Source: a virus. From it: DNA of 30,747 nt. The translations under genes and the position numbers were made by a program. Every line of letters starts with the position of its first letter. The first letter of the stretch is position 1. Where the stretch lies: positions 1-30,747 of IMG/VR virus record IMGVR_UViG_3300017739_000060; one strand, written 5' to 3'. Shown here piece by piece: positions 1,425 to 30,419 of the stretch. A model generated the notes under the pieces. That model was given only the letters and a program-made list of their open reading frames with translations. It was not told the DNA's origin and did not search any database.

Positions 1425-1739
1425 ATGGATCTTTTATATTTTATTCTCGCCTCTTGGGGTATGACCCAGATCTTAGTTTACGGAACAATTTTTGAGACCC
1501 AACGCCATTGGATTATGGAAAAATCTGATTGGTTTGGGGCACTTATCCACTGCCCAATGTGTACGGGTTTTTGGGTCGGCGCATTTTTGTTCGGCATAAA
1601 TGGCTTAACAGAACTATTTAATTTTGAGTATAATATCGCTAATTTACTGATTTTGAGTTGCGTAGCCTCGGCTACATCGTATGCTTTAAACGTTGTTATT
1701 AGCGATAGTGGTATAAAGATTAACAATATTCACGAGTAA
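1425..1739 (+). CDS. Small membrane protein with CxxCxGFWVG motif (DUF1360-like)
   Basis: A 104-residue protein with about three hydrophobic segments: residues 2-22 (LLYFILASWGMTQILVYGTIF), 46-63 and 70-92. The loop before the second segment carries CPMCTGFWVGAF, a Cys-x-x-Cys followed by GFWVG. This resembles the signature of the DUF1360 family of small bacterial and phage membrane proteins, whose function is not established. The ATG abuts the previous stop (TAAATGG). Finding an inner-membrane protein among head-assembly genes is odd. T4 proheads assemble on the inner membrane, so a membrane-anchoring role is conceivable, but that is speculation. Confidence 0.7.
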   Translation: MDLLYFILASWGMTQILVYGTIFETQRHWIMEKSDWFGALIHCPMCTGFWVGAFLFGINGLTELFNFEYNIANLLILSCVASATSYALNVVISDSGIKINNIHE

Positions 1740-1839: not shown

Positions 1840-2436
1840 ATGAGTAAGATGTTATTAACAGAATTTTATCAACTATGTGAAGGTGGAACATGTCAGGATC
1901 TTCTAACGGAAGACGAAAAGCGTTACGTCGCAAATGGTGGGCTAATTCTTTCAGGTGTGATGCAGAGGGCAGAAGCACAAAACGGAAATGGCAGAGTTTA
2001 TCCTATGCGAGTTTTAGAGAGAGAAGTAGACAATTACAAGAAACTTGTCAAGGAAAAGAGAGCACTGGGCGAACTAGACCACCCGGAATCGTCTATCGTT
2101 AATCTCGCTAATGCCTCCCATCTAGTCACAGAGGTGTGGTTCGAGGGTAAAGATGTCATGGGAAAGATTAAAGTCCTAGACACACCAGCAGGCAAAACCC
2201 TTAGAGCACTAGTTGAAGGTGGGTGTCAGGTAGGCATCTCTTCTCGTGGCTTGGGCACTGTTGATGAAAACAATGGCGCAGCCAGAGTTAATGATGACTT
2301 TCAGTTGATTTGCTTTGATATGGTTTCTGAACCATCCACAACTGGTGCTTTTATGATGAAAGAGAATAAAGAGCCAAATATGTGGACAAAAGCCGATAAG
2401 ATCAACAGATTATTAAACGATATTGTAAAGGATTAA
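1840..2436 (+). CDS. 21: Prohead core protease (T4 gp21-like)
   Basis: A 198-residue protein of the T4 gp21 prohead protease family, a serine protease that matures the prohead by cutting scaffold and capsid proteins. The visible motifs fit: NGNGRVYP near residue 50, the catalytic His in GELDHPE (His81), the catalytic Ser in VGISSRG (Ser134 or 135) and a conserved Asp in CFDMVSEPS (about 160). Length is close to T4 gp21 (about 210). Scaffold and capsid genes lie downstream. The RBS is modest (AAAGGA). Likely substrates are the proteins at 6941 and 7984. The family is known for autocleavage after head assembly. Confidence 0.92.
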   Translation: MSKMLLTEFYQLCEGGTCQDLLTEDEKRYVANGGLILSGVMQRAEAQNGNGRVYPMRVLEREVDNYKKLVKEKRALGELDHPESSIVNLANASHLVTEVWFEGKDVMGKIKVLDTPAGKTLRALVEGGCQVGISSRGLGTVDENNGAARVNDDFQLICFDMVSEPSTTGAFMMKENKEPNMWTKADKINRLLNDIVKD

Positions 2437-3586: not shown

Positions 3587-3668
3587 TATTTTTCTTGTTT
3601 GCTTTTAAGCAATTAGGGCAAAATCAAAGAAAAATTCACACCTACCTCGCCTAAATCTGATCCTCAAA

Positions 3669-3677
3669 ACTATTTAT
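3669..3677 (+). promoter_or_regulatory. ACTATTTA motif, copy 1
   Basis: AACTATTTAT lies in the gap between the small structural gene and the fibre gene. It is one of five intergenic copies of the same element in the window. This copy lies 95 bases before the fibre start, with hairpins in between, so its role here is less clear than at the other sites. Confidence 0.35.
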
Positions 3678-3682
3678 ATATG

Positions 3683-3724
3683 AGCACAAAGTTTGTGCTT
3701 AAGAGCGCCTTCTGGCGCTTTTTC
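3683..3724 (+). terminator. Tandem hairpins with T-run (terminator)
   Basis: Two adjacent stem-loops. The first pairs AGCACAA (3683-3689) with TTGTGCT (3693-3699) around a three-base loop. The second pairs AAGAGCGCC (3701-3709) with GGCGCTTTT (3714-3722) around TTCT and runs into TTTTTCTTT. The second is a classical intrinsic terminator, ending head-operon transcription before the fibre gene. The rest of the 3587-3770 gap is AT-rich and includes TATAAAAA near 3735, a possible promoter element for the fibre gene. No gene is seen there. Confidence 0.75.
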
Positions 3725-3770
3725 TTTAATTTAATATAAAAATTTAATAAATCTATAGGAGGATTTACAT

Positions 3771-6845: not shown

Positions 6846-6885
6846 ACTAAGTTGTTATTTTTTTGTATTTTTCGTTTTTAAAGAA

Positions 6886-6892
6886 CTATTTA
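6886..6892 (+). promoter_or_regulatory. ACTATTTA motif, copy 2 (before scaffold/capsid)
   Basis: AGAACTATTTACTACG lies 49 bases before the scaffold ATG. It is followed by a 5'-leader hairpin: CGCAAA (6899-6904) pairs with TTTGCG (6912-6917). The position fits a late promoter or leader element driving scaffold and capsid synthesis. Confidence 0.45.
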
Positions 6893-6940
6893 CTACGACG
6901 CAAAACGTCTATTTGCGACCAAATACTAGGAGATTATACA

Positions 6941-7963
6941 ATGTCATCAATGTTAGAGCAAGCGATTGTCGATGCTAAGGCACTCAAAGAAGCTGCAATT
7001 AAGAGCGCAGAGTCCTCTATTGTAGAGAAATACTCACAAGAAATTAGAGAAGCAGTCGACACTATGCTTAATCAGGAAGAGGTAATCAAAGAAGAAGACA
7101 TGGTGGCTAACATCCCAATGGCAGCCTCCGATGTAACAGACGCCCCAATGACTGGCGGCGAAGAAGTTATCGAACTTGATTTTCAAGAGCTTGAACAAAT
7201 GATTGATCAAGAGTTGGGCGGAGAGGAAGAGGCGGAAGAAATGGTCGACCGTCACGAATTTGCCGAAGAAGAACTCGAAGGTGAGGAAAAGGAAGAACTT
7301 CAAGAAAGCGATGAAATCGATTTAACCAGCTTGTTTGAAGATGAAGAAATTAATTTAGACGAAGAGCAAGTAGAGGAGCTAGCAGAAAAGCTAACCCTTG
7401 ACTTCCAGCCAGTAAAATCTGGAAACCTTGGCATGCCAGACTCTCAGAAGCAAGAAGCTCACGAAGAGGCAAAAGCCCTTGATGCACATATCGACGAAGA
7501 GGCAGAGGGAGAAGACGTAATCCCTGTTGAAATCGGAAAACTTAGAGAATCTGTCGAGACCCTTGAAGCAGAAAAGAAAGAGCTTCAAGAGAAACTCCAG
7601 ACACTACAGTCTAACACCAAACACATTGAGGACGTAGTTCTCAAGTTAAAAGACGCTTTGAACAAAACCTCAGTTCAGAACGCAAAGCTACTTTACACAA
7701 ACGAAGCATTGATTAGCGACTCGTTGAATGGGCGACAAAAAGCAAAACTTGTCGAAGCTATTTCAAATGCCAAGTCTGTAGAAGAAGCTAAGGTAATCTT
7801 TGAAACCCTTCAAAGCACGGTGAGCGGAACTAAGAAAGAGTCCCCAAAAACACTTAGCGAGGCGGTTAGTAGGAAATCTACTTTGTTACCACAAACTAAA
7901 GAGGCTAAACAACCAACTGATCCTCGCATCGATAGGATGCAAAGATTAGCAGGTTTAAACTAA
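6941..7963 (+). CDS. 22: Prohead core scaffolding protein (gp22-like)
   Basis: A 340-residue protein starting MSSMLEQAIVDAK after CTAGGAG. The open frame extends upstream to 6863 but that part has no RBS and overlaps the leader motif. Residues 60-150 are extremely acidic (EELEGEEKEELQESDE), residues 175-225 carry more acidic segments, and residues 185-260 form a coiled coil (KLRESVETLEAEKKELQEKL). The C-terminal part ends in RIDRMQRLAGLN. Composition and position directly before the capsid gene match T4 gp22 (about 269 residues), the internal scaffold degraded by gp21. The assignment rests on synteny and composition rather than on a catalytic motif. Confidence 0.82.
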   Translation: MSSMLEQAIVDAKALKEAAIKSAESSIVEKYSQEIREAVDTMLNQEEVIKEEDMVANIPMAASDVTDAPMTGGEEVIELDFQELEQMIDQELGGEEEAEEMVDRHEFAEEELEGEEKEELQESDEIDLTSLFEDEEINLDEEQVEELAEKLTLDFQPVKSGNLGMPDSQKQEAHEEAKALDAHIDEEAEGEDVIPVEIGKLRESVETLEAEKKELQEKLQTLQSNTKHIEDVVLKLKDALNKTSVQNAKLLYTNEALISDSLNGRQKAKLVEAISNAKSVEEAKVIFETLQSTVSGTKKESPKTLSEAVSRKSTLLPQTKEAKQPTDPRIDRMQRLAGLN

Positions 7964-7983
7964 CTTTATAAGGAGACAATAAA

Positions 7984-9768
7984 ATGTCAGTTTTAGATAA
8001 ATTAACAGAAGGTATTGTTAATCGTGATCTCCAGAAAGAAGGTGCCGCTCTACTTAACAAGTGGGAAAACACCGGACTTCTTGAGGGACTTAACAGTGAC
8101 CAAACAAAAGACGCCATGGCTCGTTTGCTTGAAAACCAAGCTAAAGAGTTGTTGCGTGAAGCCAGCACAATGGCTGGTGGTGATGTCGAAGGCTTCGCAG
8201 CAGTTGCATTTCCAATCGTTCGCCGTGTATTCGGAAACTTGATCGCTAACGATCTTGTAAGCGTTCAGCCAATGAGCCTCCCATCGGGACTCATTTTCTT
8301 CCTCGACTTTACAGTTGACGGAAGTCGCCCAAGCCCAGCAAAGCCGGGATATCCTGCCGATAGCTCACTCTACGGTGCGAACGTTGTTGGTAGCCAGTTG
8401 ACTGGTGGTGTAGACCTTACTAAGGACGGTCTTGAGCAAGGACCATACAGCTTGAACAACGGCTACTCTAGCCCAACTGGTTCCGATGAGAATAACTCAG
8501 TTTCTGCACTTTCGTTGCACGGTACCGCGAGTTCAGGAGACTTTGAACTTGATAAAGCACTTGGATTCGACCCAGACCTTTCTGGCTCTGTTGTCTGCGT
8601 TGCTGCAATCGCTGGTACAGCCGATCTCTCTCAATTGGACATGAAAAACCTTGTTGCAATTGGAGCTAAGAACGGTACTGACCAAGAAAGAGAACGTCTT
8701 TATGTAAGACAAATTCGTCGTCAAACAGCAGTGCATTCTGGATCTACTGGTAACCTTTATGATGCTTCTAACACTAACTTAGACATCAAATTGGTATTTG
8801 AATTCACTGGATCTGCTACATCCACTGGAGCTAGTCTTAATGAATTCCACGCAGGTATTGCGGCTTGGGTTGCAGACATCGAAGGCGCACAGCCTCTCGA
8901 CTTGACTTTCCCAATTACTGATGATTTCCAACAAGGTGGAGCACTTGGTTCCGTTGTTGGTGATCCAACTTGGGGACTTGAGAACGAAGCTGACATCCCA
9001 GAAATCAACATCAAAGTTGATTCCGTTGCGGTTACTGCTCAGACAAAGAAGCTTAAGGCTAAGTGGACTCCAGAATTGGGACAAGATCTCAGCGCTTACC
9101 ACAACCTTGATGCAGAAGTTGAGCTTACAAGCATTCTCTCTGAGCAAATTGCTCTTGAGATTGACCGTGAGATTCTTGAGGACCTTATCAAGGGTGCTAC
9201 TGCTGGAACTCAATACTGGTCACGTCGTCCGGGTAGATTCCTTACTCGCGACACAGGTGCTCAGATTGGTGGCGGATTGGACAACGAGTCCTTGATGGGT
9301 GCTGACTTCACTGGTACTGTTTCTGAATGGTACGAGACTTTAGCTGAAACCATCAACGATGTTTCTGCTCAAATCCACAGAAAGACACTTCGCGGCGGAG
9401 CAAACTTTGTTGTTTGTTCACCAGAAGTTGCTAACATTCTTGAGTTCACTGCTGGCTTCCGCGCAAGCATTGGAAACGATTATGGTAACGGCTCTGTTGG
9501 AGCAGTCAATGTTGGATCTTTGAGTAAGAAGTTTGACGTATATGTGGATCCTTACTTCCCACGTAACGTTATTCTTGTTGGACGTAAAGGTGGATCATTC
9601 CTCGAAAGCGGATATGTATACGCTCCATATGTCCCACTCCAAGTAACTCCAACTATCTTCGGTGTCGAGGACTTTGTACCTCGTAAGGGTGTCATGACAC
9701 GCTACGCCAAGAAGATGGTTAGACCAGATATGTATGGTCTTGTTATCTGTCGCGACCTTCTTGGATAA
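7984..9768 (+). CDS. 23: Major capsid protein (gp23-like)
   Basis: A 594-residue protein of the T4 gp23 family (HK97 fold), longer than T4 gp23 (521). The N-terminal region to about residue 59 is a helical delta domain ending LLRE|AST, which fits the gp21 cleavage rule (hydrophobic-x-Glu) after Glu59. The next stretch (VAFPIVRRVFGNLIANDLVSVQPM, shown in part) is typical of gp23, as are LKAKWTPELGQDL, the basic-acidic helix EQIALEIDREILEDL, and the C-terminal segment with YAPYVPLQVTPT. Residues 110-270 include Gly/Ser-rich loops that may carry the extra length. The RBS is AAGGAG. Codons are strongly biased, as expected for the most abundant virion protein. A strong terminator follows. Confidence 0.95.
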   Translation: MSVLDKLTEGIVNRDLQKEGAALLNKWENTGLLEGLNSDQTKDAMARLLENQAKELLREASTMAGGDVEGFAAVAFPIVRRVFGNLIANDLVSVQPMSLPSGLIFFLDFTVDGSRPSPAKPGYPADSSLYGANVVGSQLTGGVDLTKDGLEQGPYSLNNGYSSPTGSDENNSVSALSLHGTASSGDFELDKALGFDPDLSGSVVCVAAIAGTADLSQLDMKNLVAIGAKNGTDQERERLYVRQIRRQTAVHSGSTGNLYDASNTNLDIKLVFEFTGSATSTGASLNEFHAGIAAWVADIEGAQPLDLTFPITDDFQQGGALGSVVGDPTWGLENEADIPEINIKVDSVAVTAQTKKLKAKWTPELGQDLSAYHNLDAEVELTSILSEQIALEIDREILEDLIKGATAGTQYWSRRPGRFLTRDTGAQIGGGLDNESLMGADFTGTVSEWYETLAETINDVSAQIHRKTLRGGANFVVCSPEVANILEFTAGFRASIGNDYGNGSVGAVNVGSLSKKFDVYVDPYFPRNVILVGRKGGSFLESGYVYAPYVPLQVTPTIFGVEDFVPRKGVMTRYAKKMVRPDMYGLVICRDLLG

Positions 9769-9794
9769 TCCCAGTAAGATCTAGACAAACAAAG

Positions 9795-9829
9795 AGCCTC
9801 GTCATTAATTTGGCGGGGCTTTTTTATTT
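9795..9829 (+). terminator. Intrinsic terminator after the capsid gene
   Basis: AGCCTCGTC (9795-9803) pairs with GGCGGGGCT (9812-9820) over nine pairs, followed by TTTTTTA. This is a textbook intrinsic terminator closing the scaffold-capsid unit. The remaining gap to 9896 has only AT-rich sequence with a degenerate TTACTATGAT and the RBS of the next gene. Confidence 0.85.
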
Positions 9830-9896
9830 CTATACTGCTTTAACCTTGCCCAATAACTAATTACTATGATACACTTGTGTCTAGGAGATTTAATGA

Positions 9897-11198
9897 ATGG
9901 CTTACCCAACTTTAACACCATCAAGCACAACTAGCGTTTCTAGATTGCCCGTAACTGGAAATATAGACAATGTTAACGCCACAGATAACCCGCTTCCATA
10001 TGGAGTGTATGTCGATAAGGCTTCCTCTCATCATGCAATCGCAGGCTTTTTAACTGGTGCTGTAGATCAAGTAGCTTATGCATACCGAAAGCTAGGTGGC
10101 GATGTTTTAGATATTGAAATCACGGAGCACCAAGTCTATGCTGCTTATGAAGAAGCTTGCTTGGAATATTCTTACCTTGTTAATATACACCAAGCAAAGA
10201 ACGTGCTTGGGAGTGTTCTTGGGTCAACCACGGGATCTTTTGATAGTGATGGGCAAATGTCCGGGTCTCACTCACTGAGCGGGTCAAACATTGCCTTAAG
10301 ATATCCAAAGTTTGATTTCCAATATGCAAAAACAGTTGGCAAATCTATATCAACTGAAGCGGGGATTGGAGGAAGCATTCCAATTTATTCTGCTTCATTC
10401 GCGGCGATACAAGGTCAGCAGGATTATGACTTGCAGAACATTATAAGCACAACCTCAACAACAGATGCCGATAGTCCTTTCTACCAAAAGCTTGGAGCAG
10501 ATGGGGACAAGAGAATCACGGTCAGGAAAGTTTATTACAAGACGCCTATGGCAATGTGGAGGTTCTATGGCTACTATGGTGGCTTGAATACAGTTGGGAA
10601 CCTGTCTTATTATGGTCAATACTCAGATGATTCAACATTCGAACTTATTCCAACTTGGCAAAACAAAGCACAAGCCATGGCATTTGAAGACTCGATCTAT
10701 ACCAGAACATCACACTTTTCTTATGAAATTAAGAACAACAATTTGAGATTGTTCCCCAGACCACACACTGGAGGTCCGAGAAATTACTGGGTGGAGTTCA
10801 CCGTAGAGGAAGATCCTTGGGTAAGCACAGCGGGATTGGATGACGGTGTAGAGGGTGTCAACAACTTAAACACACTGCCATTTGAGAACATACCATACGA
10901 CAGAATTAACTCTATTGGTAAGCAGTGGATTAGAAGATTCGCCCTTTCCCTATCTAAGGAAATGCTAGGGCTAGTCAGAAGCAAGTTTGCCACCATACCA
11001 ATACCAAATGAGAGTGTAACCTTGAATGGACCAGCCCTCGTCACAGAGGCAAAGGCAGAGCAGATTGCACTTAGAGATGAACTCAAGACAGTGCTAGACG
11101 AAACAACCTATCCAAAACTAGCAGAACAAGATAGCAGCATAAGTGATTCGGCGCAGAACATACTTAGAAACGTTCCGCCTTCACTATTTGTAGGATAA
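9897..11198 (+). CDS. 13: Neck protein (gp13-like)
   Basis: A 433-residue protein starting MAYPTLTPSS. A second ATG four bases upstream (9893) is in another frame and stops after 13 codons, so 9897 is the start; the RBS is AGGAG. Residues 65-100 (VAYAYRKLGGDVLDIEITEH followed by an acidic helix) match the gp13 N-terminal pattern of a KLG-x-VxxIEVxxxQ helix pair. Near the C-terminus come WIRRFALSLSKEMLGLVRSKF, a segment with IPxxxVTLNGPALVTEAKAE, and a Glu-rich helix, as in gp13 homologues (LPGGVTLNGxxIxxEA). T4 gp13 is 309 residues, so this is longer, with a Gly/Ser-rich insertion around 105-170. It completes heads for tail joining, together with gp14. Confidence 0.7.
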   Translation: MAYPTLTPSSTTSVSRLPVTGNIDNVNATDNPLPYGVYVDKASSHHAIAGFLTGAVDQVAYAYRKLGGDVLDIEITEHQVYAAYEEACLEYSYLVNIHQAKNVLGSVLGSTTGSFDSDGQMSGSHSLSGSNIALRYPKFDFQYAKTVGKSISTEAGIGGSIPIYSASFAAIQGQQDYDLQNIISTTSTTDADSPFYQKLGADGDKRITVRKVYYKTPMAMWRFYGYYGGLNTVGNLSYYGQYSDDSTFELIPTWQNKAQAMAFEDSIYTRTSHFSYEIKNNNLRLFPRPHTGGPRNYWVEFTVEEDPWVSTAGLDDGVEGVNNLNTLPFENIPYDRINSIGKQWIRRFALSLSKEMLGLVRSKFATIPIPNESVTLNGPALVTEAKAEQIALRDELKTVLDETTYPKLAEQDSSISDSAQNILRNVPPSLFVG

Positions 11199-11203
11199 AA
11201 TAA

Positions 11204-11692
11204 ATGGCAGACAACAAATGGTCACAACCTGATGCTCCACCTCCTCCCTTATTTACTGGGGAGAAAGAGCGCAATTTAGTCAAGCAGATTAATGACGAGG
11301 TAATCGAGCGCGTCATTGGTCAAACTGTGCTTTACTATCCCATAAGTCTGGAAAAAACTAGCTTTCATTCTCTTTACGGCGAAGCTATAGACAAGACGTT
11401 CTTGCCCCCTGTTCGAGTTTATGCTTTAATCGGATGGGAAGGTCAAGAATCAACAAATACAACCTTTGGTGTTGATAAAAGATCAAACATCAATATTTAC
11501 TTTCACAAGCGAAGGTTAACGGAAGATCAAAACTTGTTTGTTCGTGAGGGTGATTTTATATTATACGGAAAATTTCACTACGAGATTGTGACTCTCAACG
11601 AACCAAAAGAATTATTTGGTCAAGTAGAGTACAAGTATGAGATTGCAGCAACTTGTAGGAGAGCGAGAAAAGGGACGTTTAACGCCCTATAG
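11204..11692 (+). CDS. 14: Neck/head completion protein (gp14-like)
   Basis: A 162-residue protein starting MADNKWSQPDAPPPPLFTGE. The pattern NLVKQINDEVIERVIGQTVLYYP, then VRVYALIGWEGQ and INIYFHKRRL, is reminiscent of T4 gp14 (an N-terminal helix ending in xxLYLPR, then a beta-rich domain with a FxxxR strand). The protein is shorter than T4 gp14 (256 residues). It lies between gp13-like and gp15-like genes in the T4 order 13-14-15, which supports the call. There are no signal or membrane segments. The family resemblance is weak, so position carries much of the weight. Confidence 0.55.
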   Translation: MADNKWSQPDAPPPPLFTGEKERNLVKQINDEVIERVIGQTVLYYPISLEKTSFHSLYGEAIDKTFLPPVRVYALIGWEGQESTNTTFGVDKRSNINIYFHKRRLTEDQNLFVREGDFILYGKFHYEIVTLNEPKELFGQVEYKYEIAATCRRARKGTFNAL

Positions 11693-11700
11693 GATTAGGC

Positions 11701-12618
11701 ATGTCGAATTACACAGGAATACCAGAAGAAAAAAAGGACACTATACTTGATCAAGATCTAGAGTTCGCTCCTTCGACTCTAGAGACAATTGATTATGCTC
11801 TCTATGATTATATGGACTCTAAGTTCAACTTAAAGACAATAACCAATGAGGGAAGGAAGAAAGTTCCGGTTGTCTGGTCGTCTGCTGAAAGGTCTTTTCA
11901 AATAAAGGATGACAAGGAATACAGAGACAACGAAGGTCTCATCATCCTTCCCGCAATAACTATAGAAAGAATTGGTCTTGAAAAGAATTTAGGCAGAAAG
12001 GGTGCTTTCTCAGGGGGTATGTTCCCAATACCGACCCAGCCAGAAAAAGGCGGATCTATCGTAATCGCCAGAAGAATAAAGCAGAACAAGACTTCTAACT
12101 TTGCAAATGCAACTGCTAACATAAGATACAATGATAGAGTGGCTCCAAAGTTTGTGAGAACCCCAACAGAGAAAGTGGTTTATGAGACGATTTCTATTCC
12201 TGCATTGGTTTATGTTTCTGTCAATTATAGAATAAAGATAAGAACTGAATACCAACAGCAGATGAATGAGTTGGTGCAACCTTTCGTAACGAGAACAGGA
12301 ATTGTTAATAGCTTTTTTGTAGAGCGCGATGGTCATTCATACGAGGCATTTATCAATTCAAGCTTTGAAAGCAATAACAATATCGCCAGTATGGAAGGCG
12401 AAGAACGTAGGTATGAGACAGACATATCTATAGAGGTTTTAGGTTACCTAGTAGGAGAAGGAGACAATCAAGAGACACCCAAGTATTCAGTTAGAGAAAA
12501 CGCTGTCCAAATACGGATTGGCAGAGAGCAAGCAGTTTTCAACGATCCACTCGTCACGGGTGGTCCGGGAGGAGACAGTAAGCGAAACTTTGGAGTGGAT
12601 GGCAAGTATAGAGAATAA
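11701..12618 (+). CDS. 15: Tail completion / sheath stabiliser (gp15-like)
   Basis: A 305-residue protein starting MSNYTGIPEEKKDTILDQDL. T4 gp15 hallmarks are visible: VPVVWSSAERSFQ near residue 55 (gp15 has VPITYASxExF), a segment ending ILPAITIERIG, YETISIPALVYVSVNYRI followed by MNELVQPF, and RRYETDISIEVLGYLVGEG, which parallels gp15's RRxEWxLxFEVxGW. T4 gp15 is 272 residues and caps the proximal end of the tail to fix sheath and tube before joining the neck. The following gene is the sheath, a sensible context. Confidence 0.75.
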   Translation: MSNYTGIPEEKKDTILDQDLEFAPSTLETIDYALYDYMDSKFNLKTITNEGRKKVPVVWSSAERSFQIKDDKEYRDNEGLIILPAITIERIGLEKNLGRKGAFSGGMFPIPTQPEKGGSIVIARRIKQNKTSNFANATANIRYNDRVAPKFVRTPTEKVVYETISIPALVYVSVNYRIKIRTEYQQQMNELVQPFVTRTGIVNSFFVERDGHSYEAFINSSFESNNNIASMEGEERRYETDISIEVLGYLVGEGDNQETPKYSVRENAVQIRIGREQAVFNDPLVTGGPGGDSKRNFGVDGKYRE

Positions 12619-12643
12619 TTTTGGACTTTGAAAGAACCGAACA

Positions 12644-12650
12644 CTATTTA
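12644..12650 (+). promoter_or_regulatory. ACTATTTA motif, copy 3 (before sheath)
   Basis: GAACACTATTTATTTAAG lies 54 bases upstream of the sheath ATG. A short hairpin follows in the leader: TACC (12663-12666) pairs with GGTA (12672-12675). Then comes a good AAAGGAG ribosome site. This is consistent with a late promoter for the sheath gene. Confidence 0.45.
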
Positions 12651-12703
12651 TTTAAGAAATAATACCGTCATGGTAGTTAAGCCGATTAAAGGAGAATTCG
12701 ATA

Positions 12704-15700
12704 ATGTCAGCAAGAGATTATAAGTTTGTGTCACCCGGAGTTTTTATTGAAGAGATTGACAACTCTCAAAGACCAGCAATAGCAGCACCTATTGGTCCTG
12801 TAGTTATTGGTAGATCTAGGAGAGGTCCAGCATACAGACCAGTTAAAGTTAGTTCTTTTTCTGAATTTATTACAATTTTTGGAAACCCAGTTGCAGGCGA
12901 GGAAGCTAGCGATATTTGGAGATCCGGTGTGCCAACCGCTCCAACATTTGCTGCCTACGCTGCTCAAGCTTGGCTTAAAAACAATTCAGCATTGACATTC
13001 ATCCGCCTCCTTGGTGATCAGCACCCAGATGCTGACACATCAGACAACACAGCAACTGCCGGTTGGACAGCGGAAGAAAGAGGCACCAGCACTCAAGCTG
13101 CCGCTGGTGGTGGTGCATATGGCTTATTCTTGTTTAATTCTGCGTCTGATGCACTCGCTCCCAACAATGAGGTAGCGGCTTCGCACGAGGCTGTTGACGG
13201 AGTTTTGGCAGCCACATTCTACACTACAACAGGGGCCCCGGCACTTGTTGGATCTCCTAGAGCAGGCAATAGTTCCATTGTGACAACATTTTCAGGCTCT
13301 TCGGCTCTTATTGATTCTTTAGACGTGAATCAAAACTTTAAGCTTAGAATTTACGATACAAAAGCAAACAAAGAGGCCTCTCTTGGTACCACTGGTGTTC
13401 TCAAAGAGGCTGTCTTTAATTTTAATCGATCCTCTAATAACTTTATTAGAAAAGTGTTTAATACAAACGCAACAAAAACAAACAGCAACTTAATTGACAC
13501 AGGCAATGATTCAACTTCGACTTTCTTCTTGGGGCAGTCTTACGAGAGACACGTAGCACAATTCATCACAGCCAGTCAGGCATGTTATGGAGTTATCCTC
13601 CAGCTAGGCGGCGGAACAATGGGCGATGGTGGAGATCACAAATTCGCAACGAACGCTGCACAAACTGGGTGGTTTTTCTCACAAGACTTGAGAAACACAG
13701 CGGGTGGTGGGAACGATGGCAACGCCGCTACAGTCACAGGCAACCAGTTGATCCCTGCTTACAACCCAGAAGCTGCTTCATCCAATGTTGCACAAAAGCT
13801 TTTCAAACTTCACACATTAAGCACTGGAGATTCTGAACAAAGACAATTCAAGATTTCAATCGAAGACATCAGATATTCCAGAAACGACAGCACTCCCTAT
13901 GGTACTTTCACTTTAGCAATTAGAGATATCAAGGATACCGATGGAGTTAAGAGATATGTCGAGAGATACACAAATCTTACACTCGACTCTAATTCCCCAA
14001 ACTACATTGGAAAGCAAATTGGTGATATGTATGTCGAGTGGGACACAAACAAGAAGAGATTGGTTGAGTATGGATCTTATCCAAACGTATCCAAGATTGT
14101 TCGTGTAGAGGTTGCTTCGGCAGTTGAATCTGCACAGATCAACCCAGAGCTTCTTCCATTCGGTGTGTATGGACCAACAAAATTGAAAGATTTTGAATTA
14201 AAAACTCAAGATGATGACAACCTATTTGTAAGCGCTGCATCCCCAGTTGACTTCTTGGCTTATGGTACAGGATCCTGTTTCTTGGCTACAACTGGATCAA
14301 CTATAAACAAAGTGCAATTAGGAGTGGATGCCAAAACACCTGCATTCACAGGGTCTGTTATATTCCCTATGATTCCCCTTAGATCTAGCTCTGCCGAAGA
14401 TAACTTGTCGGATCCAACAGAAGCTTACTTTGGAGCACAGTTCACTAGAGCTACCGGCTCTGTGATCTTTGACGCGAGTAACTTGGATGTGCTCTACAGC
14501 TTGCCAAAGGGGGCAGGTGGAGCAGCAGGGTTTGGCAACGTCGCCAACACAACAGAGACTTCTTGGTACTTCACATTGGATGACCTTAGAATGGATGCGA
14601 GTTCAGACAAGCCAGCTTATTACGCATCAGGCTCAAGAGCAAGCGGAGTTTCAATCACGGCTACTTCCGGCTCATACAAGAATGTGCTTGATAAAGGATA
14701 TGATAGATTCACATCTCCTCTTTATGGAGGGTTTGATGGATTCAATATTAAAGAAAAAGAGCCCTTCAATCACTCCAGAGCACTCCCTGAAGGTGCGACT
14801 GATACGGGATACTCCATGTTCTACTCTGTAAAGAAGGCAATTGATATGTATTCCGACCCTGAGTTTATCGATGGAAACATCCTTACTGCTCCCGGTATTG
14901 TTAACGAAGGTCTTACAACTCATATGATTGAGACTGTTGAGGGTCGCGGAGATACCTTGGCTATCATCGATCCAAGAGGTGGATACACACCTGCATCTGA
15001 AGATTACCAAAGCGAGCAGAGCAGAATTTCTGCAACACACGTTAGCGATGTTGTAAACAATATGCAACAGAGAAATCTCAACTCTAGTTACGCAGCGACA
15101 TACTATCCTTGGGTTAGAATCACAGACACAATTAGTGGACGTGGAGTATGGGCACCACCATCAGTTGCGGCATTCGGAGCCCTCTCTTTCTCAGAGAAAG
15201 TTGCAGCACCATGGTTCGCACCAGCAGGATTCACTAGAGGTGGATTATCGCAAGGCGCAGCAGGTATTCCTGTGACGATGGTGAGAAGCAAGCTTACTTC
15301 AAAGGAAAGAGATGATCTTTACGATGTGAACATTAACCCAATCGCCTCTCTTCCAAACGAGGGAATTGTAATCTTCGGACAGAAGACATTGCAAGCAACT
15401 CCATCAGCATTGGATAGGATTAACGTGAGAAGATTGATGATCTTTGTAAAGAAGGAAATTTCTAGAATTGCATCAACCTTATTGTTCGAGCCTAACGTTA
15501 GCGATACTTGGTCCAACTTTACATCTCAAGTTGAGCCATTCTTAGCAGGGGTCCAGAATCAGTTCGGACTTGATGGATTCAGAGTCCAGCTTGACGAAAC
15601 AACAACGACGCCAGATTTGATTGATCAAAACATCATCTATGCAAAGATTTTCTTGAAGCCAACTAAAGTTGTAGAGTTCTTTGCGATTGATTTTGTAATT

Positions 15701-15730
15701 ACAAACTCTGGTGCAGGATTTGAAGATTAA
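12704..15730 (+). CDS. 18: Tail sheath protein (gp18-like), enlarged
   Basis: A 1008-residue contractile tail sheath protein. The N-terminus has the classic pattern YKFVSPGVFIEEID, then GPVVIGRSRRGPAYRPVKV and a segment with FGNP. The C-terminal conserved domain includes WVRITDTISGRGVWAPPS, INVRRLMIFVKKEIS, a segment with LLFEPN, and KIFLKPTKVVEFFAIDFVIT. T4 gp18 is 659 residues; the extra 350 lie mainly between residues about 130 and 680, a Gly/Ser/Thr-rich, probably surface-exposed insertion. The gene has its own ACTATTTA element and strong RBS. It polymerises around the gp19 tube and contracts on infection. Confidence 0.95.
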   Translation: MSARDYKFVSPGVFIEEIDNSQRPAIAAPIGPVVIGRSRRGPAYRPVKVSSFSEFITIFGNPVAGEEASDIWRSGVPTAPTFAAYAAQAWLKNNSALTFIRLLGDQHPDADTSDNTATAGWTAEERGTSTQAAAGGGAYGLFLFNSASDALAPNNEVAASHEAVDGVLAATFYTTTGAPALVGSPRAGNSSIVTTFSGSSALIDSLDVNQNFKLRIYDTKANKEASLGTTGVLKEAVFNFNRSSNNFIRKVFNTNATKTNSNLIDTGNDSTSTFFLGQSYERHVAQFITASQACYGVILQLGGGTMGDGGDHKFATNAAQTGWFFSQDLRNTAGGGNDGNAATVTGNQLIPAYNPEAASSNVAQKLFKLHTLSTGDSEQRQFKISIEDIRYSRNDSTPYGTFTLAIRDIKDTDGVKRYVERYTNLTLDSNSPNYIGKQIGDMYVEWDTNKKRLVEYGSYPNVSKIVRVEVASAVESAQINPELLPFGVYGPTKLKDFELKTQDDDNLFVSAASPVDFLAYGTGSCFLATTGSTINKVQLGVDAKTPAFTGSVIFPMIPLRSSSAEDNLSDPTEAYFGAQFTRATGSVIFDASNLDVLYSLPKGAGGAAGFGNVANTTETSWYFTLDDLRMDASSDKPAYYASGSRASGVSITATSGSYKNVLDKGYDRFTSPLYGGFDGFNIKEKEPFNHSRALPEGATDTGYSMFYSVKKAIDMYSDPEFIDGNILTAPGIVNEGLTTHMIETVEGRGDTLAIIDPRGGYTPASEDYQSEQSRISATHVSDVVNNMQQRNLNSSYAATYYPWVRITDTISGRGVWAPPSVAAFGALSFSEKVAAPWFAPAGFTRGGLSQGAAGIPVTMVRSKLTSKERDDLYDVNINPIASLPNEGIVIFGQKTLQATPSALDRINVRRLMIFVKKEISRIASTLLFEPNVSDTWSNFTSQVEPFLAGVQNQFGLDGFRVQLDETTTTPDLIDQNIIYAKIFLKPTKVVEFFAIDFVITNSGAGFED

Positions 15731-15744
15731 AAAATAGAAAGCAA

Positions 15745-15751
15745 CTATTTA
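15745..15751 (+). promoter_or_regulatory. ACTATTTA motif, copy 4 (before tube)
   Basis: AGCAACTATTTATTAATG lies 37 bases upstream of the tail tube ATG in a 57-base AT-rich gap with no terminator. It fits a separate late start for the abundant tube protein. Confidence 0.45.
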
Positions 15752-15787
15752 TTAATGTAAAAACTTTTATAAAGGAAATATAATATA

Positions 15788-16372
15788 ATGGCAACAACCT
15801 CAAAGACAGCAAGCCCCGGATTTTGGGCATCAAAAGCTTCAGAAGCAAAAAGAAAGTATAGGTTTAAGCTTAGGGTCGCAATGGCTGGCAGCAGTTTTGA
15901 GGAGTGGGTAATTACTAAAGTAACTAGACCTAGCTTTTCAATCACAGACACATCTCACTCATACCTTAACCACACTTTTAAGTTTCCGGGAAGAGTTAAC
16001 TGGGAAGATGTTTCCTTCTCCTTGGTAGAGCCCCTAGCCACAGACTCAACTGATATTCTTATGGCTATGCTTTATAACTCAGGTTATAGGTTCCCAAGCA
16101 CAACCAACAGCAATACGATTGCCAAAGAGACATCCATCATTGATGCATTCGAAATTTCGGCGTTGAATGCGGGAGGGAGTGCTGTGGACAAGTGGACACT
16201 CAGAAACCCTTGGATCTCTCAAGCCAGCTTGGGCGAGTTTGATTATACAGCAGATGACTTGATGGGGATTGACATTACTGTTAAGTATGACTTTGCAATG
16301 TATCAAGATCTTCTCGGCACTGGATTAAACAAATTATCTAAGGAAGGCACAACAACTCCACAGCCATCATAG
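15788..16372 (+). CDS. 19: Tail tube protein (gp19-like)
   Basis: A 194-residue protein directly after the sheath gene, as in T4, where gp19 has 163 residues. Features typical of gp19 are KRKYRFKLRVAMAG, WVITKVTRPSFSIT, FPGRVNWEDVSFSLVEPL and a C-terminal GIDITVKYDFAMYQ strand. It is the structural subunit of the inner tube that is ejected through the baseplate and cell envelope. The RBS is AAAGGA. After the stop, 16373-16448 is an AT-rich gap without a convincing terminator. Confidence 0.9.
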   Translation: MATTSKTASPGFWASKASEAKRKYRFKLRVAMAGSSFEEWVITKVTRPSFSITDTSHSYLNHTFKFPGRVNWEDVSFSLVEPLATDSTDILMAMLYNSGYRFPSTTNSNTIAKETSIIDAFEISALNAGGSAVDKWTLRNPWISQASLGEFDYTADDLMGIDITVKYDFAMYQDLLGTGLNKLSKEGTTTPQPS

Positions 16373-16448
16373 TCAAATAAAAAAGATTAACATTTTTTCT
16401 AACTTATTATATACTTACAATAGACTCCAATTAATATACGAGGTATAA

Positions 16449-17297
16449 ATGAGCAGAAACAATGAAGATCGATTCGGTAGCCCCCTAGCTCCCGACCAAC
16501 CATTACCCCCACAAGAAATGCAACAGATGGCTCAACAGTCTGCAATGTCATATGTTACACCAACTGAGCTAGTTGACTTGCCTTCAAAGGGCAAATTCTA
16601 TTCCGAGGGTCACGCCCTCCACAATAAATCTGAAATCGAAATCAGGCACATGACTGCAAAAGATGAAGACATCCTTGTCAATCAATCTTTTCTGAAAAAG
16701 GGTGTTGCAATTGATAAGCTTCTAGAGAGTGTTATTGTTGATAAATCAATTAAGATAGCAGATCTTTTGGTTGGCGACAAGAACGCAATTGTGATCGCCA
16801 CAAGAATCTCAGGATACGGTGCAGACTACGAAGCGAAGGTGGCTTGTCCATCTTGCGGAAATGTGGAGGAAAAAGAGTTTGATTTAGATGAAGCTACCGT
16901 CTATAACGATGCATCGAATGATACGACAGAAAGCGGAACCTTCCTTATAACCCTCCCAAAAACTGGGGCAGTTGTTGAAGTTAGACCCTTGACTGGTCGT
17001 GACGAAGCAAAGTTGGTATCTTCTAACTCAACCAGAAAGAAGCACAAGCTTGCCCCACTAGGGTTGACAGACCAGATGAAAATGTATGTCAATAGCGTAA
17101 CTATGGATTCAAACGCAGTACCTGTCTCAGAATTCATTGACAATATGCCAGCTATTGATTCTAGATATCTTAGAACCGAGTATAAAAATTCGTTACCAAA
17201 CGTTGAACTTGCCCAGCATTTTGAATGCAGTAACTGTGGATATGAGCAAGTATTGGAGGTACCGTTTACCACTGACTTTTTTTGGCCTAAGCAATGA
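16449..17297 (+). CDS. 26: Baseplate hub / tail assembly protein (gp26-like) with zinc ribbon
   Basis: A 282-residue protein. Residues 38-120 carry the T4 gp26 (T4_baseplate) family pattern: ELVDLPSKGKFYSEGHAL, then EIRHMTAKDEDIL, and a VDKSIKIADLLVGDKNAI block. Cys133-x-x-Cys136 (CPSCG) and Cys260-x-x-Cys263 (CSNCG) form a probable zinc ribbon. T4 gp26 is 208 residues. The reading frame ends TTT TTT TGG CCT AAG CAA TGA, containing T7 (17277-17283). There the ribosome could slip into the downstream frame, as lambda G/GT proteins do before the tape measure gene. Such an arrangement would make this a tail assembly chaperone as well as, or instead of, a baseplate part. Confidence 0.8.
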   Translation: MSRNNEDRFGSPLAPDQPLPPQEMQQMAQQSAMSYVTPTELVDLPSKGKFYSEGHALHNKSEIEIRHMTAKDEDILVNQSFLKKGVAIDKLLESVIVDKSIKIADLLVGDKNAIVIATRISGYGADYEAKVACPSCGNVEEKEFDLDEATVYNDASNDTTESGTFLITLPKTGAVVEVRPLTGRDEAKLVSSNSTRKKHKLAPLGLTDQMKMYVNSVTMDSNAVPVSEFIDNMPAIDSRYLRTEYKNSLPNVELAQHFECSNCGYEQVLEVPFTTDFFWPKQ

Positions 17298-17472
17298 TTA
17301 TATTGAAGGCGTTTACGAAGAGTTATTTTCTCTAAAGTATCATGGCGGCTGGAGTCTTTTTGAATCCTACAATCTCCCTATCCAAATTAGGAGATGGTTC
17401 CTAAGAAGGTTGCAGAAGCAATTTGATCAAGAAAAGAGAGAATACGAGAAAGCAAGAAAGAGAAGTAGATAG
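17242..17472 (+). CDS. Short overlapping frame, probable frameshift extension of the gp26-like gene
   Basis: The frame read after T7 (17277-17283) encodes GLSNDYIEGVYEELFSLKYH and about 42 further residues, rich in aromatic and charged residues (HGGWSLFESYNLPIQIRRWF), ending in a charged helix. It resembles short tail-assembly chaperone T-domains. The only nearby in-frame ATGs are at 17137 and 17242, inside the gp26-like gene and without a convincing RBS. The ATGA at 17294 is in a third frame. The coding-looking sequence begins right at the slip site. A -2 or +1 shift would give a fusion of about 340 residues. Independent initiation at 17242 (76 residues) cannot be excluded. Confidence 0.65.
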   Translation: MSKYWRYRLPLTFFGLSNDYIEGVYEELFSLKYHGGWSLFESYNLPIQIRRWFLRRLQKQFDQEKREYEKARKRSR

Positions 17473-17477
17473 ACCAG

Positions 17478-17507
17478 AGACCAAAGTGTTTTTGGTCTAT
17501 TTTTTTA
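17478..17507 (+). terminator. Intrinsic terminator after the gp26-like pair
   Basis: AGACCAAA (17478-17485) pairs with TTTGGTCT (17491-17498) around GTGTT, followed by ATTTTTTTATT. This ends the tube / gp26-like unit. Confidence 0.8.
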
Positions 17508-17517
17508 TTAGTAACAA

Positions 17518-17524
17518 CTATTTA
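17518..17524 (+). promoter_or_regulatory. ACTATTTA motif, copy 5
   Basis: AACAACTATTTATAACGGAGG lies just after the terminator and 18 bases before the next ATG, so a transcript starting downstream of it would have an almost minimal leader. A promoter right after a terminator is a common layout in phages. Confidence 0.4.
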
Positions 17525-17541
17525 TAACGGAGGACTGTACC

Positions 17542-26060: not shown

Positions 26061-27248
26061 TTGTTATTCCAAGCTTTAGATGAGAAAGAGAAGTGCGTAG
26101 GCGTCTACGTCGATGGGGAGATACTCAAAGAAATCCCAGAAGACGGTTCACGCACTTGGAAGTATGCTTCCTTTCTAAAAGATCGGGAAATAGAGTATGC
26201 TAACATATATTGTCATGGGGAAGACCTTGGCAAAGTCTGCCCACCAGAACTCAAAGAAGACTACGACCGCATCTGGAAAAAGCTAAAAGCGTTCTATAAA
26301 TCCTTTGCAATCTCTAAGGTATCGCTAAACGACCATTGCTTTTTCGACCTTGTTCCAGAGGGCTTTGTTAAAGAATACTGCTTGCTAAAAAACAAAATTA
26401 CAGATCACGTCTTTGCAAATTACGAGAAGCCAGAAAACTATGATACGCTCCTAAGCATTACCAAGGTCACCACAGACATAAAGCAGCAGAAGCTAAACAT
26501 CGACTTGTCTGTTCTCAATAATGAATTAGCAGACACCAGAACAAAAGACTTCTATAAGAAAATCAACTCACTAGAACATCACATAAACTATAATCCTTTC
26601 GGAACCAAGACTGGTCGACTGACCACGGAGAAGTATTCATTTCCAATCCTGACAATGGATAAGAAGTTCAGAAAGATTATCAAGCCAGATAATCAATGGT
26701 TTGTTGAATTGGATTATAATGCAGCAGAATTGAGAGTGATGTTGGGTCTTTTAAACATTGATCAGCCTCGTCGTGATGTGCATGATTTCAACTCTCACAA
26801 ATTATTCAATGGAAACTTAACCAGAGAAGAAGCAAAGAAGAAGATTTTTTCTTGGCTTTATAATCCTAATTCAAGCGACGAGCGTCTTTCTAGACTCTAT
26901 GACAGAGATGCACTTGTAAACAAGTATTGGAATGGTAAGTCCATAAAAACTAACTACAAAAGAGAAATAGAGAGCGATAGGTATCACGCATTGAACTATC
27001 TCTTGCAGAGCACCTGTAGTGATCTGATATTGGAGAAGGCAACAATCATATCAAAAATACTCGAAGGAAAGAAGACTAAGATAGCTTTTATCATCCATGA
27101 CAGTATCGTCTTGGACTACTCAGACGAGGATGGAGACTTCATCAATGAGGTTTACTGGGAATTTCAAGATACTAGGTTTGGCAAATTCTTGACCAATGTA
27201 TCCGGCGGAAGAAACTTTGGAGAGATGAGGAGCTTATGGATATATTAG
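26061..27248 (+). CDS. Minimal family A DNA polymerase-like protein
   Basis: A 395-residue protein (TTG start at 26061; no in-frame ATG precedes it). All key PolA motifs are visible in order. TGRLTT is at 184-189, motif A ELDYNAAELR holds catalytic Asp218, and the O-helix motif B reads R255-x3-K259-x3-F263-x3-Y267 (REEAKKKIFSWLYNP), the exact spacing of E. coli Pol I R754/K758/F762/Y766. NYLLQ (N312-Q316) matches the QGTAAD region, and motif C has H346-D347, with Ser348 where Pol I has Glu. There is no 3'-5' exonuclease or 5'-nuclease domain, and the length is below Klenow (605). It probably has polymerase activity. It overlaps the next gene by 13 bases. Confidence 0.8.
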   Translation: MLFQALDEKEKCVGVYVDGEILKEIPEDGSRTWKYASFLKDREIEYANIYCHGEDLGKVCPPELKEDYDRIWKKLKAFYKSFAISKVSLNDHCFFDLVPEGFVKEYCLLKNKITDHVFANYEKPENYDTLLSITKVTTDIKQQKLNIDLSVLNNELADTRTKDFYKKINSLEHHINYNPFGTKTGRLTTEKYSFPILTMDKKFRKIIKPDNQWFVELDYNAAELRVMLGLLNIDQPRRDVHDFNSHKLFNGNLTREEAKKKIFSWLYNPNSSDERLSRLYDRDALVNKYWNGKSIKTNYKREIESDRYHALNYLLQSTCSDLILEKATIISKILEGKKTKIAFIIHDSIVLDYSDEDGDFINEVYWEFQDTRFGKFLTNVSGGRNFGEMRSLWIY

Positions 27249-30068: not shown

Positions 30069-30419
30069 ATGCAAAGAATCATCACCCTATCTTTATTCTT
30101 ATCAGTCTTCTCGGGCTGCGCTTTCGCCCACCCCACTACTAAATCTCACAACCCGCACTATGAGTACGAAGAGTATCACATCGCATACCCCTCGTACTAT
30201 GTTGTCTATGAATACTATGACCACTACTGGCATACCCATAGCAACGATTACCACAGCCACTTCTACAAGTACAAGGGGCACACCCACCACAAGAAAAAGT
30301 ATAAGAAGTACAAGAAGAAGTACAAGAAGAAGTATTTCAAAAAGAAGTACAAGAAAAAGCACAAGAAGTATAAAAAGTATAAGAAATACAAAAAGAAAAA
30401 ATACACCCACCACCACTAA
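30069..30419 (+). CDS. Secreted Lys/Tyr/His-rich low-complexity protein
   Basis: A 116-residue protein. Residues 1-20 are a signal peptide: MQR, a hydrophobic core IITLSLFLSVFSG, then CAFA-H. It offers both a lipobox-like FSGC17 and an SPase I AFA|H site. The mature part is first His/Tyr-rich (YEYYDHYWHTHSNDYHSHFY), then a K/Y tract of KKYKK-like units, ending KKKKYTHHH. The low-complexity, strongly basic and aromatic composition is unlike its neighbours and could bind metal, polyanions or envelope surfaces. I know no family. The opposite strand has a shadow frame of hydrophobic residues, a by-product of the codon repeats. Confidence 0.65.
   Translation: MQRIITLSLFLSVFSGCAFAHPTTKSHNPHYEYEEYHIAYPSYYVVYEYYDHYWHTHSNDYHSHFYKYKGHTHHKKKYKKYKKKYKKKYFKKKYKKKHKKYKKYKKYKKKKYTHHH

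Follow-up and report, generated by a model that had tools for sequence, protein, structure and literature searches.

A short motif recurs in front of structural genes in a 30.7-kb viral fragment (30,747 nucleotides, hereafter the window), which raises the question of what the motif does and what reads it. The window encodes a protease, capsid, adaptor, sheath, tube, hub, tape measure, polymerase, single-strand binding protein and RecA-like protein. It had no megablast match among phages, and scans with Rfam and for tRNAs found none in it. The closest isolates by capsid protein are Rhodothermus phage RM378, Flavobacterium phage immuto and Microcystis phage Mel-JY01 (34-49% identity; cyanophages ~30%), identities consistent with a far-T4 member of the T4 superfamily. 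The literature searched contained no account of far-T4 late promoters, and the main far-T4 genome paper mentions neither promoters nor sigma factors (PMC4360716). From the evidence below, we put at roughly 0.85 the probability that each motif copy serves a far-T4 phage as a late promoter and that a gp55-type sigma factor with two domains reads it.

A preliminary description of the window had listed CTATTTA on the + strand at 1614, 3670, 6886, 12644, 15745 and 17518, and had proposed a motif count with a strand test. All these coordinates are correct, and AA or CA precedes each. Counted on both strands and compared with 100 shuffles, MACTATTTA occurs six times on the + strand and not at all on the other, against 0.54 expected for both strands together; none of the 100 shuffles reached six. 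CTATTTA by itself shows no significant excess in the window (8 against 4.8 expected, equalled by 15 of 100 shuffles), so the preceding AC matters. Five MACTATTTA copies are intergenic, before a fibre-like gene, the putative scaffold gene, the sheath and tube genes and gene 17542. The distances first given to the sheath, tube and 17542 genes hold. The motif does lie upstream of the scaffold gene, whose likely start is the ATG at 6941 and not the TTG at 6863. The listed sites are real, but a further copy, ACTAATTA at 9856 (variant AACTAATTA, 9855-9863), in front of the adaptor gene at 9897, had been missed. A weight matrix built from the 217 aligned copies described below also picked out this site; run over the window, it gave the site scores in Table 1, of which that of the predicted scaffold promoter, 23.1, is the highest. 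In the relatives, MACTATTTA stands before the adaptor gene at 24 homologous loci, and 30, 12 and 10 sites are homologous to the predicted promoters of the sheath, the tube and gene 17542, respectively.

Table 1. Genes, motif copies and predicted late promoters of the window, with a sigma factor gene of phage RM378; promoters and start sites are predictions.
Feature	Position	Strand	Evidence or elements
Prohead (head maturation) protease gene	1840..2436	+	phrog_207 1.5e-53
Major capsid protein gene (gp23-like, far-T4)	7984..9768	+	phrog_138 5.1e-72; RM378, immuto, Mel-JY01 matches
Tail sheath gene	12704..15730	+	phrog_23 2e-64
Tail tube gene	15788..16372	+	phrog_4542 2.4e-19
MACTATTTA	1612, 3668, 6884, 12642, 15743, 17516	+	window motif search
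Predicted late promoter inside ORF 1425-1739	1593..1626	+	GGCATAA (weak -35-like), AACTATTTA 1612-1620, predicted start ~G1626; score 20.7
Predicted late promoter -10 element AACTATTTA	3668..3682	+	predicted start G3682; score 18.2
Predicted late promoter, putative scaffold gene (ATG 6941)	6865..6898	+	GTATTTT (-35-like), AACTATTTA 6884-6892, predicted start ~6897-6898
Predicted late promoter variant AACTAATTA	9855..9869	+	predicted start ~9868-9869; before head-tail adaptor gene 9897; score 16.7
Predicted late promoter, tail sheath 12704	12623..12656	+	GGACTTT (-35-like), CACTATTTA 12642-12650, predicted start G12656; score 22.3
Predicted late promoter -10 element AACTATTTA, tail tube 15788	15743..15757	+	predicted start G15757; score 15.2
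Predicted late promoter, gene 17542	17501..17530	+	TTT (partial -35-like), AACTATTTA 17516-17524, predicted start G17530; score 21.3
RM378 Rm378p144, ECF-like sigma beside capsid gene	L088:981-1580		

Comparison with related genomes, also proposed at the outset, showed the pattern recurring with extreme strand bias in 80 IMG/VR loci that encode close relatives. Together with the window, these loci hold 163 copies of MACTATTTA on the gene strand and 4 on the other. The looser ACTA[TAC]TTA, a count that leaves out the in-gene GAACTATTTA class, gave 355:15 in the relatives, and whole contigs had the same strand bias as the capsid loci. At a weight-matrix score of at least 14, the ratio was 331:1 in the structural, capsid-encoding loci and 15:7 in 1.5 Mb of sigma-gene neighbourhoods, where the exact motif gave 36:17. 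The element thus belongs to virion-gene regions, a placement shared with T4-type late promoters, which stand in front of virion genes and not in early regions. A Bacteroidota-type TAnnTTTG promoter, considered as a candidate, was without strand specificity in these contigs.

The copy at 1612-1620 lies inside a DUF1360-like gene and had been counted as coding background, wrongly as it turned out. The codons for E-L-F at 1611-1619 are GAA in 25 of 25 homologues, CTA in 24 of 25 and TTT in 24 of 24, while synonymous codons vary at other conserved positions of the same gene in the same 25 homologues. These frozen codons show selection on the DNA, which points to a promoter inside the gene and rejects mere protein conservation. 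The copy is ~220 nt upstream of the prohead protease gene, which it presumably feeds, and it argues strongly and independently for a function of the motif.

An alignment of 162 copies revealed a second block ~19 bases upstream and a preference for G/A 14-15 bases after the motif start. The copies share one layout, in which 13 bases separate G[GT]CNTTT from ACTATTTA and a G/A stands where the start is expected; the most informative base within ACTATTTA is its C. Among 217 copies with a mutual upstream identity below 60%, G[GT]NNTTT occurs at offset -19 in 56, against 15, 19 and 10 at -20, -18 and -17 and 0-7 at most other offsets; TTT occurs at -15 in 103 of the 217, against about 12. Grouping the copies by the gene that follows shows the upstream block again in front of scaffold, sheath, adaptor and unassigned genes. 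The block is absent or poor in some copies, including those at 3668 and 15743 in the window. Terminator U-runs are common ~20-40 nt upstream of the motif, with an excess of structure at offset -40, and the -35-like signal may partly reflect these U-runs.

With +1 placed at motif position 14, a G or A, ACTATTTA would occupy -13 to -6, the exact place of the T4 late promoter TATAAATA, whose box lies about one helical turn before the start; G/A would then stand at +1/+2. The preliminary description had instead linked the motif to the reverse complement of TATAAATA, a misleading trail. Exact TATAAATA is no more frequent in the window than by chance, and the two motifs have only TA..TA in common. 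The reverse-complement likeness is incidental, and ACTATTTA should be read directly. A T4 promoter for antisense RNA, as a reverse-strand reading would imply, was likewise rejected, since conservation and layout are sense-oriented.

We then compared the phage late sigma factor, gp55, with proteins of the relatives. A 243-aa protein encoded on a 185-kb motif-bearing contig has matches to phrog_234, the family of the T4 late sigma (2e-5 in a genome search, 5e-4 in a family scan), and to the annotated gp55 of Ochrobactrum phage OC (5e-4). Its family includes immuto KNV73_gp118, Mel-JY01 WWT39502 and members on at least 596 IMG/VR stretches; the window fragment is without the gene. All of the 10 long contigs (155-192 kb) examined with this gp55-like sigma also bear the strand-biased motif. 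Aligned by hhalign with seven gp55s, the family profile scored 8.5e-7, chiefly over region 2, in which most of the identity of only ~13% lies. A PDB sequence search with the profile gave no match, and Foldseek searches with the sigma models gave no E-value below 0.001. The AlphaFold2 model (mean pLDDT 79.9, pTM 0.43) has two helical domains, and solved sigma factors dominate its structural matches, both as whole proteins (SigB, Z 10.6) and over region 2 (sigma-E, 2.9 A over 93 residues). Modelled alone (pLDDT 86.3, pTM 0.74), the C-terminal domain forms four helices with a helix-turn-helix; sigma-H region 4 ranked first (Z 6.8, 2.5 A, 74 residues), and region 4 of sigma-32 and of SigA are also among the best matches. 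The Z-scores, in both cases, are moderate for all-helical models.

The gp55 family is characterized by a homologous region 2, by the lack of region 4 and by a C-terminal clamp-binding motif. The far-T4 protein has the homologous region 2 in each of the profile, hhalign and fold comparisons, but carries an added C-terminal domain; its C terminus is KWNxGxI, and the hydrophobic-acidic clamp motif was not found. In one profile alignment, T4 gp55 residues H95 and T99, which touch -9/-8, appear to correspond to F105 and S109, and Y97, which stacks on -12, appears to be kept as Y107. Such an F105/S109 pocket would be consistent with the change from AA to TT at -9/-8. The region-4-like domain, in turn, would account for the upstream block.

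In T4 late transcription there is no -35 box, the sliding clamp substitutes for it, and the sigma factor is split into gp55 and gp33. The late promoter TATAAATA is read by gp55 in Straboviridae (PMC2988020, PMC7892883), where gp55 consists of region 2 and a helix-loop-helix, the beta flap is occupied by gp33 and the promoter has no -35 box (PMC7892883, PMC2988020). The element described here resembles this system as an 8-bp AT-rich -10-type box before virion genes, with the same predicted spacing to the start, a gp55 homologue in the relatives and a gp55-family region 2 as proposed reader. It differs in having ACTATTTA for TATAAATA, with AC at -13/-12 and TT at -9/-8; in the conserved -35-like block at the fixed offset -19, which T4 late promoters are without; and in a sigma factor with an extra region-4-like C-terminal domain, where T4 has the separate gp33. 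Aeromonas phage Aeh1 has a late promoter with (a/g)C at -13/-12 (PMC2988020), a precedent within the T4 family for the AC found here, but only this change is described, and neither a TT change nor a -35 element is reported (PMC2988020). Very probably, the far-T4 element is a T4-type late promoter in variant form: its -10 is distinct, and it carries a -35-like element in addition.

We propose that the phage-encoded gp55-type sigma would bind host RNA polymerase, its region 2 melting and reading ACTATTTA as the -10 element, and that the helix-turn-helix of its region-4-like domain would contact the G[GT]CNTTT block (-33 to -27). Transcription would begin ~6 bases past the motif, at G or A, and the virion genes would be expressed from these promoters late in infection. 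The repeated ACTATTTA is very probably a late promoter for virion genes and, given such a promoter, the gp55-like sigma is very likely the reader. The contact between region 4 and the -35-like block is, on balance, probable; this contact and the two-domain sigma are the least certain steps.

The "late element of unusual form" of the preliminary description is thus well supported, the motif being strand-specific, confined to virion-gene regions and promoter-like in layout. That ACTATTTA is instead a promoter for a host housekeeping or alternative sigma factor, with late genes merely needing strong promoters, seems improbable to us. TATTTA does resemble a degenerate -10 hexamer, with a -35-like block to accompany it, but the motif is nearly absent from the early and sigma-gene regions, where a host sigma should act; moreover, its most informative base, the C, is not part of the host -10, and the relatives encode a gp55-like sigma. 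A DNA site bound by some other late activator protein, or a replication or packaging signal, could also take the form of a short conserved block that recurs among the structural genes. Such a role is very unlikely for copies strictly oriented with the genes, placed just before start codons and held at a fixed distance to the -35-like block and to the G/A at the expected +1.

An element acting in RNA, by leader processing or stability, as had also been suggested, is hard to reconcile with the conservation, which reaches ~19 bases upstream of the motif and hence outside the RNA made from the predicted +1; we regard it as most unlikely. Some predicted transcripts do start with hairpins (3668, 9855), but structure just past the predicted start exceeds that of shuffles only slightly, by ~-0.5 kcal/mol, too weakly for 5' hairpins to be a general feature, while at offset 0 the motif is free of structure (its MFE exceeds that of shuffles) and the layout matches promoters.

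Late-type motifs also occur in isolates. The immuto late region has CTATTTAT with a strand count of 8:0; CTATTTATA in immuto and ATATTTATA in Mel-JY01 likewise stand 20-45 nt before late genes, and both phages encode the same sigma family. The immuto copies differ in having no matching -35-like block, by eye, and those of Mel-JY01 in an A at -12. RM378, also a far-T4 phage, encodes the ECF-like sigma Rm378p144 (region 2 and region 4) near its capsid gene, but this protein belongs to phrog_1740, outside the gp55-like family; as a candidate reader it was rejected, since a search of the marine contigs gave no homologue that convinced. In RM378, TTTATTTA, a candidate for the same element, occurs 5-15 nt before several start codons, with 9 sense and 7 antisense copies upstream.

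Within the T4 superfamily, then, an extensive marine group of uncultured phages seems to combine promoters of two parts with a sigma of two domains. How the split sigma arose can thereby be tested, and late operons in hundreds of genomes of uncultured phages can be annotated by a practical rule. A bolder reading, somewhat less likely than not, is that the late sigma of far-T4 phages is a single piece (gp55-like region 2 plus region 4) used with two-part late promoters, and that the split gp55 and gp33 of T4, with its clamp-dependent, -35-less promoters, may be derived, or else the far-T4 form a re-fusion; late transcription in the marine group might then have no need of the replication clamp. 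The sliding clamp model PF02916 matched in T4 only, but it also misses the clamp of cyanophage P-RSM4, so its absence elsewhere proves nothing.

Several further features of the window were observed. The DNA polymerase match at 26061-27248 (phrog_17; phrog_15971 'DNA polymerase I') is followed by the single-strand binding and RecA-like genes, an order shared with immuto, in which the first gene encodes a family A polymerase; the shared order suggests a non-T4 replication module. The hub-like gene (16449-17297) and the next ORF (17137-17472) overlap by 161 bases on the same strand; one may be misassigned, or the overlap may be true. A weak match to the GmrSD restriction endonuclease N-terminal domain, below the Pfam cut-off (E 2.4e-4), lies at 30069-30419.

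Hairpins adjoin some of the predicted promoters. The one at 3668 precedes the fibre-like gene at 3771, with two hairpins in between: a strong one (GCACAAA-gt-TTTGTGC) begins at +2 and is followed by a terminator-like hairpin with a U-run (3682-3728), so that the promoter would yield a terminated RNA of ~45 nt or an attenuator. Locus L009 is arranged likewise (~1989-2040), with both stems kept and bases changed (GCACGA/TCGTGC); only these 2 of 345 sites combine promoter and double hairpin. In several relatives (L026, L033, L039, L040 and L071), a G/C-rich stem-loop (for example GGGAGGTTTTTACCTCCCA) directly abuts the predicted tube promoter CACTATTTA, as if terminator and promoter were fused.
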